Below, piece after piece: positions 32,191-44,517 of a stretch of 64,000 nt of DNA. This DNA comes from Mesorhizobium sp. J8 (GTDB lineage Bacteria > Pseudomonadota > Alphaproteobacteria > Rhizobiales > Rhizobiaceae). The stretch's first letter is position 1. Each line of letters opens with the position of its first letter. The notes under the pieces are model-generated. The model was not told the origin of the DNA, ran no database searches, and saw nothing but the letters and a program-made list of their open reading frames with translations. The position numbers were made by a program, and so were the translations under genes. The stretch covers positions 6,012,001 through 6,076,000 of the forward strand of contig NZ_AP024109.1 of NCBI RefSeq assembly GCF_016591715.1. Reading direction: 5' to 3'.

Positions 32191-32345
32191 GTCACAAATC
32201 CGTCGAGAAGGCCTTCAAGGCCGCAGCGGAAATACAGGCCACGGGCTGGAATGTCGAGTGCCGCCGCTTGGCGTAAGCGGGCCGCCCGCCAGCAGGCTAC
32301 CCGTTGACGAAGCGCGGCGCTGGTCCTAGAAGGACTGCCAGACTT

Positions 32346-32403
32346 CCGTGGTGATTTGGCCGGTCGGCTTGCAGCCACGTTAAACAACTTGCTAAAGGGC
32401 CGT
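32346..32403 (+). ncRNA. SAM-II riboswitch aptamer upstream of metX
   Basis: The sequence matches the alphaproteobacterial SAM-II pattern: P1 arms CGTGG (32347-32351) and CCACG (32375-32379), the core GTGATTTGGCC, a central GGCTTGCAG loop, the conserved GTTAAACAA, and GCTAAAGGGCC at the 3' end, whose GGCC pairs back with GGCC at 32358-32361 to form the pseudoknot. SAM binding should lower metX expression. It lies 109 bases before the metX start. Confidence 0.92.
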
Positions 32404-32414
32404 TTGCAACCTGT

Positions 32415-32446
32415 AACCGGCTTTGCGACGGCAAGCCGGTTTTTTG
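32415..32446 (+). terminator. Intrinsic terminator following the SAM-II aptamer
   Basis: Arms AACCGGCTT (32415-32423) and AAGCCGGTT (32433-32441) form a 9-bp stem with a 9-base loop, followed directly by TTTT and a G/T-rich run. It sits 12 bases after the aptamer and before the metX coding region, the expected place for a transcription attenuator, although many SAM-II elements are thought to act on translation. Confidence 0.8.
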
Positions 32447-42408: not shown

Positions 42409-42665
42409 GGCAGCTGGCAAATCCCTGGCGGTTCGGCCGGAACACAGCGGCTCCAGCCTGGCATTTCCCTTCGCGAAGGGCTTATAGTTTAAAATCCGAC
42501 CTTTATATGGAGCGCGACTGGCGGCCGGCGACGTGCCGGAGCTTGACGCAATGGCGAAATGCCACTATGGAACGCCAACTTTTCCAAAGGCCGCCTGACC
42601 GAGACCGCGCGCCGCCTGGCGCGGGCAGAATGGTTTGGCAGGTTTAGAAACTGAAGGTTAGACAA

Positions 42666-42962
42666 ATGTCCCGCACCTGCGAACTCACTGCCAAGGCAGT
42701 CCAGACCGGCAACAATGTGAGCCACGCCAACAACAAGACCAAGCGTCGCTTCCTGCCGAACCTGGTCAATGTGACGCTGATTTCCGAAGCGCTGAACCAG
42801 AACGTTCGCCTGCGCATCTCGGCCAACGCGCTGCGTTCGGTCGAGCACCGCGGCGGCCTCGACGCCTTCCTGGTCAAGGCCGACGTCAAGGAACTGTCGC
42901 AGCGTGCTCGCCTGCTGAAGAAGCAGATCGCCAAGAAGCTTGCCGAGCAGTCGGCCGCTTAA
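42666..42962 (+). CDS. rpmB: 50S ribosomal protein L28
   Basis: 98 residues. [32 protein letters not shown] is the L28 start and [33 protein letters not shown] segment the core; C-terminal extension is the alphaproteobacterial type. No zinc-binding Cys pair beyond C5, so the C-minus form. Monocistronic, followed by a hairpin. Confidence 0.97.
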
Positions 42963-42991
42963 AGCAGCTATCAGGCGGGGGACGACCGCCT

Positions 42992-43016
42992 CGAGCACCG
43001 GCCAAGCCGGTGCTCG
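42992..43016 (+). terminator. Hairpin downstream of rpmB
   Basis: Perfect 11-bp stem (42992-43002 with 43006-43016) around CAA, 29 bases after the rpmB stop. There is no U-run (GCTTATG follows), so termination would be weak or rho-assisted; it also separates rpmB from the riboswitch-controlled gene. Confidence 0.55.
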
Positions 43017-43047
43017 GCTTATGAGCGAGCGTCGGCATGACGCTCCG

Positions 43048-43077
43048 CTGGTTCCATTACCCAGGATAAAAAAATGA
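43048..43077 (+). ncRNA. Candidate preQ1-I riboswitch overlapping the transporter start codon
   Basis: P1 stem CTGG (43048-43051) / CCAG (43061-43064) encloses TTCCATTAC, and an A-rich tail (ATAAAAAAA) follows, as in preQ1-I aptamers. The loop bases CATT (43055-43058) are exactly complementary to AATG (43073-43076), giving an H-type pseudoknot that includes the ATG at 43074. The Shine-Dalgarno AGGA (43063-43066) overlaps the 3' P1 strand. The gene behind it is a queuosine-precursor transporter of the family known to carry this switch in proteobacteria. Confidence 0.65.
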
Positions 43078-43760
43078 GCTTCCTGACGCGATATCTGCCC
43101 TTCGTGGCCGCCATGGCGCTCGTCGTCGTGGCCTCCAACATCCTCGTGCAGTTCCCGATGCAGGGCGAGATCGGCGGCCTGTCGCTCGCCGACCTGCTCA
43201 CCTGGGGCGCCTTCACCTATCCCTTCTCCTTCCTGGTCACCGACCTCGCCAACCGCCGCTACGGCCCGGCCGTGGCGCGCAAGGTGGTGTTCGTCGGCTT
43301 CATGACCGCGGTGACCTGCTCGATCCTGATCCCGCCCTTCCTGTTCCGTCATGGCCTGATCGAGTTCGAGACCGCCGCCGACAGGCTGGTGCGCATTGCT
43401 GCCGCTTCGGGTGCTGCCTTCCTGACCGCGCAGCTGCTCGACGTCACCGTGTTCAACCGTCTGCGCCGGCAGAGCTGGTGGCGCGCGCCGATCGTCGGCA
43501 CGCTGGTCGGCTCGGTGTTCGACACCGTCGTCTTCTTCGGCGTTGCCTTCTCCGCCGCCTTCGCCTTTGCCGGCCCCAATGACAGCTTCGCGCTGCAGAC
43601 GGCGCCGCTGATGGGAGTGCTGCCGGTCGAGACGATGCGCTGGGTGTCCTGGGCGCTTGGCGACCTTTCGGTGAAGCTCATCATCGCCGTGGTGGCGCTG
43701 ATCCCCTATCGGCTGCTCGCAGCGCGCTGGAGCCAGCCGGCGGTCGCGGCCGGAGCATGA
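43074..43760 (+). CDS. Queuosine-precursor (preQ0/preQ1) transporter, YhhQ/VUT family
   Basis: 228 residues, six membrane spans. VVASNILVQFPM near the start and DLANRRYGPAVARKVVFVGF, with the SPLTFLITDL-like FPFSFLVTDLANRRYG block, mark the vitamin-uptake/VUT family (COG1738, YhhQ). It imports a queuosine precursor used for tRNA wobble modification. The start codon lies within a candidate preQ1-I pseudoknot. The stop is inside repeat type D. Confidence 0.88.
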   Translation: MSFLTRYLPFVAAMALVVVASNILVQFPMQGEIGGLSLADLLTWGAFTYPFSFLVTDLANRRYGPAVARKVVFVGFMTAVTCSILIPPFLFRHGLIEFETAADRLVRIAAASGAAFLTAQLLDVTVFNRLRRQSWWRAPIVGTLVGSVFDTVVFFGVAFSAAFAFAGPNDSFALQTAPLMGVLPVETMRWVSWALGDLSVKLIIAVVALIPYRLLAARWSQPAVAAGA

Positions 43761-43802
43761 TTCCAGGAAGCGGGAACCGGTTTTCGGAAAAGATCATGCT
43801 CC
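43752..43802. repeat. Palindromic intergenic repeat (type D)
   Basis: GGAGCATGAT (43752-43761) and ATCATGCTCC (43793-43802) flank a core with GGGAACCGGTTTTCGG. It overlaps the end of the transporter gene, supplying its stop codon, and a partial second copy (GAGCATGATTCCAAG) begins at 43816. It belongs to a repeat type frequent between rhizobial genes. Confidence 0.65.
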
Positions 43803-43842
43803 AGGCAAAACGAGAGAGCATGATTCCAAGTGTAATCAGCTC

Positions 43843-44517
43843 ATGATTCCCTGGGTCCAGCTTGATTCTGCCCGCACGCCCGATGGCGGCCAGGAGTTGC
43901 GCCTGAAGCAACGCGGCACCGAATTCTCGATCATGCTCGGCGCCAACGAATTGATGAACAGCCGCCTCAGCGGCTCCGAGGAGGCTCTCGCCAAGCTTTC
44001 CTGCGAGCGGATCGCCGGGCGCAAGGGGCCGAGGCTCCTCATCGGCGGGCTCGGTATGGGCTTCACCTTGCGCGCCGCTCTCGCAGCGCTCGATCCCGAC
44101 GCCGCCGTCACCGTCGCCGAACTCATCCCCGCGGTCATCGTCTGGGCGCACGGCCCGATGGCGAAAATCTTCGACGGCTGCCTCGACGACCCCCGCGTCA
44201 CCATTCGCGAGGCAGATGTCGGCCAGCTGATTAGGGCGCAGAAGGCCGCCTGGGACGCCATCCTGCTCGACGTCGACAATGGCCCCGAAGGCATCGTCTA
44301 CAAGGGCAATGACGCGCTCTATGGCGCGCCCGGCCTGGCGGCGGCGCGCGCCGCCTTGACGCCCGGCGGCGTTCTGGCGGTCTGGTCGCAAGGGCCGGAC
44401 AGCGGCTTCACCCGTCGGCTGAAGCAGGCCGGTTTCGCGGTCGAGGAGATCAATACGCGGGCCAACGGCAAGCGCGGCGCCCGCCACGTCATCTGGATTG
44501 CGACCAACCGCCCCTGA
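43843..44517 (+). CDS. Spermidine-synthase-fold (methyltransferase-like) protein
   Basis: 224 residues. LLIGGLGMGFTLRAALAALDP is the glycine-rich SAM/dcSAM loop and AELIPAVIVWA the acidic strand of the spermine/spermidine synthase superfamily, but the polyamine-binding catalytic Asp of true SpeE enzymes (GGGDG motif) is not evident: the loop reads GGLGMG. Probable role as a SAM-dependent transferase of unknown substrate. Confidence 0.75.
   Translation: MIPWVQLDSARTPDGGQELRLKQRGTEFSIMLGANELMNSRLSGSEEALAKLSCERIAGRKGPRLLIGGLGMGFTLRAALAALDPDAAVTVAELIPAVIVWAHGPMAKIFDGCLDDPRVTIREADVGQLIRAQKAAWDAILLDVDNGPEGIVYKGNDALYGAPGLAAARAALTPGGVLAVWSQGPDSGFTRRLKQAGFAVEEINTRANGKRGARHVIWIATNRP

Follow-up and report, generated by a model that had tools for sequence, protein, structure and literature searches.

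A Candidate Start-Codon Variant of the Type III preQ1-I Riboswitch at a Queuosine-Precursor Transporter Gene of Mesorhizobium and Its Relatives

The Locus in Mesorhizobium sp. J8

The window analyzed here is a 64,000-nucleotide stretch of Mesorhizobium sp. J8 DNA, and it carries, on the forward strand, a gene for a queuosine-precursor transporter together with a putative preQ1 switch of 29 letters (43048–43076), in which CTGG and CCAG flank TTCCATTAC and are followed by an A-tract and the transporter start codon (Table 1). Read in DNA letters, the element runs ctgg, TTCCATTAC, ccag, gat (43065–43067), aaaaaa (43068–43073), and atg. The first-pass annotation had assigned the downstream gene to the YhhQ type, and this assignment was supported by matches above cut-off to PF02592 (98.9 bits; cut-off 27.2) and TIGR00697 (108.5 bits; cut-off 50.95); with the narrower E. 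coli-type model NF008406, the protein scores 120.6, below the cut-off of 252. Among the best 80 relatives of the transporter, the nearest named ones are from Mesorhizobium, with up to 98% identity. The gene rpmB (L28) lies directly 5′ of the transporter gene in the window (42666–43760) as well as in two other records, one from Sinorhizobium and one from Rhizobium. A consensus scan of 42600–43200 found no sigma-70-like promoter, and, given the adjoining rpmB, the switch may therefore act on an rpmB read-through transcript.

Table 1. Positions of the putative switch, its parts, and neighboring features in the window.
Feature	Position	Strand	Basis
GC-rich hairpin just 5′ of P1	43027..43045	+	folding
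P1 5′ strand, CUGG	43048..43051	+	sequence; comparison of motif loci
Hairpin loop UUCCAUUAC, 9 nt	43052..43060	+	sequence; E. coli crystal numbering after PMC10622847
Loop positions U6, U7, C8	43052, 43053, 43054	+	E. coli crystal numbering
P2 5′ strand, C9-A10-U11	43055..43057	+	E. coli crystal numbering
Loop position 12, A13, specificity base C14	43058, 43059, 43060	+	E. coli crystal numbering
P1 3′ strand, CCAG	43061..43064	+	sequence; motif loci; pair counts
Likely Shine-Dalgarno sequence AGGA, half within P1, 7 nt 5′ of AUG	43063..43066	+	
Linker GAU and A-rich L3 (AAAAAA)	43065..43073	+	sequence; comparison
Counterpart of E. coli A27 (a preQ1 contact in E. coli)	43073	+	comparison; PMC10622847
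P2 3′ strand = transporter start codon AUG, predicted to pair with CAU	43074..43076	+	frame counts; annotated starts
Position 31 (start of codon 2), A, unpaired with loop position 8	43077..43077	+	
Queuosine-precursor transporter (Vut_1/TIGR00697, YhhQ-like), 228 aa	43074..43760	+	profile matches

Three further features were observed in the window. The 45 nt 5′ of P1, which in the window hold the GC-rich hairpin, fold better than shuffled sequences (160 loci, mean z −2.06; control stretches further upstream, n = 151, mean z −0.79), and their sequences differ between loci; the hairpin is possibly an rpmB terminator or read-through device. An inverted GAGCATGATTCC...GGTTTTCGGAAAAGATCATGCTC stretch 3′ of the transporter gene (43755–43850), with a similar one found by eye in locus L083, probably belongs to an intergenic repeat family. 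Elsewhere in the window, a SAM-alpha (SAM-II) riboswitch was matched by RF00521 (77.5 bits, 32338–32415).

As a single sequence, the hairpin of the window is unremarkable (17 nt at −2.1 kcal/mol, z −1.1), and P1 is absent from the lowest-energy folds of the 33-, 53-, and 117-nt stretches of window sequence. The element is thus significant because it is conserved, not because of its single-sequence fold.

Occurrence of the Motif in the Family

The motif of hairpin, loop, A-tract, and AUG stands at the transporter start in every one of the 80 named loci retrieved with the protein sequence, which are the closest 80 relatives and mostly Mesorhizobium. The pattern CTGGTNNCATNNCCCAGNNTAAAAAAATG, with at most three mismatches, occurs in 343 of the 394 genomes searched within the family and in 95 of 109 genera, and the reversed control pattern gave one match in the same search. 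The CTGG/CCAG hairpin that had been proposed as P1 is therefore not only present in the window but conserved. Of the 51 family genomes without the pattern, 32 have the transporter; among 30 upstream regions from such genomes, the motif is present in 13 with a base insertion or an extended linker, and 17, small genomes among them, lack it. In one 1.5-Mb family genome (locus L165), the motif before the transporter looks degenerate (CTGGTTCCATTACCAAGATTAAGAATG), and several other small genomes are without it. A further 150 loci were taken among the matches listed in the pattern search: all but one (L224, three mismatches) fit a stricter motif, and the transporter follows in all but one (L279, cut by the contig end). 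Named carriers are Mesorhizobium, Pseudaminobacter, Rhizobium, Sinorhizobium, and Shinella. Outside the family, the order search matched 10 of 199 genomes (6 of the own family) and the class search 6 of 327 (one being the own genome), and in the other four and five genomes, respectively, the reading frame that starts at the matched ATG does not encode the transporter; exact patterns gave 0 and 0 matches in viral contigs.

Across 229 loci of equal length, the information per base was 1.83 bits in the motif, a figure inflated by loci drawn by pattern, 0.15 bits upstream, and 0.68 bits in the following codons. CAT, ATG, and the A-tract are near-invariant across the motif loci, most non-Mesorhizobium members of which were drawn with a pattern containing CAT and ATG. 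P1 is CTGG with CCAG in 246 of 248 loci; the exceptions are CTAG with CTAG, a compensatory change (L215/L369), and CCGG with CCAG, one broken pair. The 248 loci have 15 loop types, every one of which ends in C, and the preceding A varies; in the window, AC (A43059 and the specificity base C43060) stands before the P1 3′ strand. UU directly follows the P1 5′ strand in the window (TT, 43052–43053) and in 156 of 248 loci, with TG in the other 92. According to positions 6–8, before CAT, the family loops fall into three classes, TTC, TGG, and TGC, the window belonging to TTC. A fifth P1 pair is suggested, and only suggested, where the linker starts with C: such linkers have a G 5′ of P1 in 9 of 9 cases, and linkers starting with G in 135 of 237.

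The first-pass annotation had paired CATT (43055–43058) with AATG (43073–43076). That complementarity exists in the window, and three of its pairs follow the conserved CAT and ATG; the fourth, T43058–A43073, is not conserved, because relatives have T, C, or A at loop position 12. P2 of the window is hence better described as a putative 3-bp CAU/AUG helix, a view the comparison supports. With this pair excepted, the conservation among orthologues that had been proposed as a check, of the loop-tail pairing and of the A-tract, was borne out.

Could such conservation have another source? Protein operators commonly consist of an inverted repeat near a start codon, and CTGG-N9-CCAG might be one, bound by a repressor within an otherwise ordinary start region; such a repeat would be conserved too. 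However, almost every matching genome has a single site, and just two have two. Alternatively, the locus might be a strong, conserved translation start that does not switch, as an A-tract and AGGA before AUG favor initiation. Against this stand P1 and parts of the loop, which are as conserved as the start region itself, and the compensatory P1 pair described above. Both alternatives are taken up again below.

Relation to Known preQ1 Riboswitches

Type III preQ1-I riboswitches were reportedly defined by McCown 2014. The switch of E. coli yhhQ is a proven member (PDB 8fza; PMC10622847), and its leader in strain K-12 reads TTGGG TTCCCTCAC CCCAA TGGTTAATC AAAAAGG. In the crystal structure, loop bases U11, C10, and C9 pair with A28, G29, and G30 of the Shine-Dalgarno tail, and A27 touches preQ1 (PMC10622847). 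A common family loop, TTCCATCAC, differs by one base from the E. coli loop, and the C10-to-A change in the loop is matched by G29-to-U in the tail, i.e., AAGG becomes AAUG, which by comparison reads as a compensatory change. Further likenesses include the 9-nt pyrimidine-rich loop (UUCCNUNAC; UUCC-N-U-N-AC), the short P1, the A-rich L3 with a loop-tail P2 beside it, the formation of P2 from loop bases 9–11, and the position directly 5′ of a yhhQ-type transporter gene. The loop match and the shared gene partner support the preQ1-I-like architecture that had been proposed; ligand and switching are predicted by analogy.

In contrast to E. coli, the putative P2 strand of the window is AAUG, containing the start codon, and not AAGG, the Shine-Dalgarno sequence; the linker is just 3 nt long, with the Shine-Dalgarno sequence shifted into the P1 3′ end; and other family lineages gain a P2 pair with codon 2 and replace U7 by G. 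As type III has AAGG in P2 serving as the Shine-Dalgarno sequence, we file the element as a type III variant rather than a plain member. When positions 10 and 29 were left free in a scan of the phylum, 65 of 398 genomes matched: all 31 leaders retrieved from transporters outside the class have C10–G29, and all 11 rows of the own family have A10–U29. Most other rows of the scan have C10/G29, one (G604:C38) C10/U29, and some U10. Eight fetched matches (L183, L241–L247) were set aside because no transporter follows; five of them have U10, two C10, and one A10 with G29. The comparison supports a switch that is descended from, or built like, type III.

Kinship with other classes is more distant. 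Type II preQ1-I switches (Tte, Bsu) likewise have AC before the P1 3′ strand and form a single-ligand H-type pseudoknot, and Tte has a G8, like the G at loop position 8 of the TGG class; unlike the element described here, they have a longer loop, and the Tte tail holds the first two Shine-Dalgarno bases instead of the start codon. Direct-occlusion pseudoknots such as SAM-II take a ribosome-binding element into their own helix, and there it is the ribosome-binding site that is held inside the aptamer (PMC10907184). In the general scheme of translational control, the ribosome-binding site and AUG lie in a separate sequester hairpin (PMC10907184). As far as these accounts go, hiding an AUG is not new as such; the difference lies in an AUG that would be the aptamer's own P2 strand.

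A search with the Rfam PreQ1 model RF00522 (cut-off 39 bits), which the first-pass annotation had suggested, gave no match in the window, in two of its sub-regions, or in the whole own genome (6.69 Mb, one contig). The proven E. coli yhhQ leader was also unmatched, so the blank in the window says little.

Start Codon and Shine-Dalgarno Sequence as Proposed P2 Strands

In 237 of the 245 loci with a found frame (TTC, 154/154; TGG, 76/76; TGC, 7/15), the P2 AUG shares the reading frame of the transporter; the CDS is annotated as starting at this AUG in a Sinorhizobium and a Rhizobium record, the two that carry annotation there. AGGA overlapping the P1 3′ strand, as first noted in the window, has its counterpart in relatives: AGG is present at the P1 end in 237 of 246 loci. 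The nine loci that lost it, namely eight TGC loci and L363, kept P1, the loop, and the A-tract, which a plain translation start would not lead one to expect; together with the conserved and compensated P1, this makes a start region without switching very unlikely. In the eight TGC loci (L144, L145, L357–L362), the P2 AUG is out of frame, and the transporter's first ATG lies 4 to 16 nt downstream, a distance at which the AUGGA in P2 may serve as the Shine-Dalgarno sequence, as in E. coli. From the frame shift, the loss of AGG from P1, and the AUGGA in P2, the same aptamer seems to serve in two registers, with either the start codon or the Shine-Dalgarno sequence as its P2 strand.

Probable Extension of P2 into the Second Codon

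A G at loop position 7 always goes with complementarity between loop position 8 and the base that opens codon 2: the base after ATG is C in all 76 TGG loci and G in all 16 TGC loci. In the 156 TTC loci, it is A (110), C (27), or T (19) and never G, and the pair 8–31 is absent when position 7 is U. The window's class resembles type III in lacking a G directly after the P2 strand, for the 31 leaders from outside the class, all with U7, have T (17), C (10), or A (4) there. The encoded amino acid varies: loci with ATGC have Leu, Pro, Arg, or Gln as the second residue, and those with ATGG have Glu, Asp, or Gly. The rule also held in four Rhizobiaceae records retrieved once it had been set (Sinorhizobium meliloti, Rhizobium, Shinella, and Sinorhizobium sp.), all of which are TGG with ATGC; a fifth, from another order, is without the motif.

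The association was examined on a tree of 108 transporters, drawn from the 169 of sufficient length, with named Mesorhizobium thinned. The best tree requires at least eight changes of loop class. The independent-pair tests are small: when the supported branches of the careful tree were compared, TTC/TGC pairs were as predicted in 4 of 4 cases (sign test, p 0.125; 2 of 2 on the quick tree) and TGC/TGG pairs in 2 of 2, whereas of the three TTC/TGG pairs, an average of 1.8 agreed with the prediction and 1.2 showed no difference; no pair of any comparison ran opposite to the prediction. We then simulated the first base of codon 2 on the careful tree at its fitted rate, under two base compositions with 20,000 runs. 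Under neither composition did any of the 20,000 simulations pair every one of the 54 G7 rows; the best runs paired 44 and 45. The absence of G after AUG in TTC rows arose in 1,973 or 430 of 20,000 simulations, depending on base composition (about 2% for the second), and is not significant alone.

Pair counts over 114 distinct aligned rows found the proposed pairs paired in 91.1% of cases, vs. at most 47.3% with the partner slid. Changes on both sides sit at one P1 pair and at pair 8–31; there are 11 such cells, a number equalled by 75 of 500 shuffles, and 2 further pair types, under the shuffle mean of 2.9. The covariation score of 0.014 beats all 500 shuffles and is exceeded by slides of −3 (0.041) and +3 (0.016). 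The CAU/AUG pairs 9–30, 10–29, and 11–28 are invariant within the family and so cannot covary there; their support comes from the A10–U29 difference between groups and from pair 8–31. GUG, UUG, or CUG starts with the exact motif occurred in 0 of 394 family genomes, so that pair 11–28 had no variant to follow. Loop positions 7 and 8 share 0.58 and 0.52 bit, respectively, with the first base of codon 2, and only position 8 is complementary to it throughout the G7 classes; other loop-codon pairs share up to 0.42 bit, owing to common ancestry. These data support the view that, in other lineages, P2 is lengthened at its opposite end, where it reaches codon 2. A protein operator does not account for why, in the G7 classes, loop position 8 complements a base of the coding sequence at a distance of 23 nt. 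The conserved loop also speaks against one, being asymmetric and almost the same as in a proven riboswitch; we therefore regard an operator as highly improbable.

Ligand and Mechanism

Taken together, we interpret the element as a start-codon variant of type III preQ1-I, in which the start codon is the P2 strand and preQ1 represses translation of the transporter, and assign this reading a probability of about 0.8. Comparative data support its structural parts, namely the P1 helix, the bases of the pocket, the AUG-containing P2, and the codon-2 extension in relatives; the ligand preQ1, repression as the sign, and translational control of the window switch are inferred. Without ligand, the short P1 would be weak, leaving AGGA and AUG open to the ribosome. 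preQ1 would enter between P1 and P2, as type III suggests, with C14 reading its Watson-Crick face and U6, the A-tract, and A27 surrounding it. Upon binding, the loop CAU would close on AUG and P1 would hold half of the Shine-Dalgarno sequence, such that initiation at the transporter would be blocked and uptake of preQ0 and preQ1 would fall. Feedback on the importer makes sense because the own genome has family matches for TGT, QueF, and QueC, which suggest that preQ1 is probably made in the cell as well as imported.

Several findings count against this reading, among them, as described above, the missing AAGG tail, the lack of an RF00522 match, the invariance of CAU/AUG within the family, the drawing of most non-Mesorhizobium loci with a pattern containing CAT and ATG, the pair-count scores, and the absence of P1 from the lowest-energy folds. 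In addition, 92 of the 248 loci, those of the TGG and TGC classes, have a G in place of U7, which belongs to the pocket and ceiling of the E. coli switch, and position 13 is not always A in these classes. The same pseudoknot and translational block might instead respond to preQ0, queuine, or another deazaguanine, or might work bound to protein or free of ligand. YhhQ is needed in E. coli for the salvage of both preQ0 and preQ1 (PMC5372724), and bases near the pocket are changed in the G7 classes, which would suit another ligand. However, the window has every named E. coli pocket base (U6, U7, A13, C14, and A27), and the E. coli type III switch strongly prefers preQ1 to preQ0 (PMC10622847); accordingly, we consider these alternatives improbable. 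More speculatively, and at somewhat less than even odds, the TGG and TGC classes may constitute a fourth preQ1-I subtype, with U7 replaced by G, a 4-bp P2 reaching one base into the coding sequence, a ceiling built differently, and perhaps an altered ligand preference. The aptamer would then alternate in evolution between the start codon (most family members) and the Shine-Dalgarno sequence (E. coli and two genera with AUGGA).

Significance

Translational preQ1 switches have been described as acting on the Shine-Dalgarno sequence (PMC10622847, PMC11625349), and type III has been placed almost only in gamma-proteobacteria or proteobacteria (PMC10622847: almost exclusively gamma-proteobacteria). 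In titles, abstracts, and passages of the literature, we found no report of a preQ1 switch in Rhizobiaceae, with an earlier Rhizobiales mention possible, and none of a preQ1 switch whose aptamer holds the start codon. The terms "start codon" and "AUG" are absent from the text of a 2024 review (PMC11625349), as is "Alphaproteobacteria", and from that of the 2023 paper (PMC10622847), as is "alpha-proteobacteria". The 2024 review names riboswitches in mRNAs without a Shine-Dalgarno sequence as a challenge for the field (PMC11625349).

If the proposed reading is true, the element would be a minimal aptamer with the start codon itself as its expression platform, in which RNA structure constrains the coding sequence. 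The exchange of the Shine-Dalgarno sequence for AUG would be compensatory. That RF00522 misses both the window switch and that of E. coli points to a gap in this model. The preQ1-I class would thereby be extended to a large alphaproteobacterial family.
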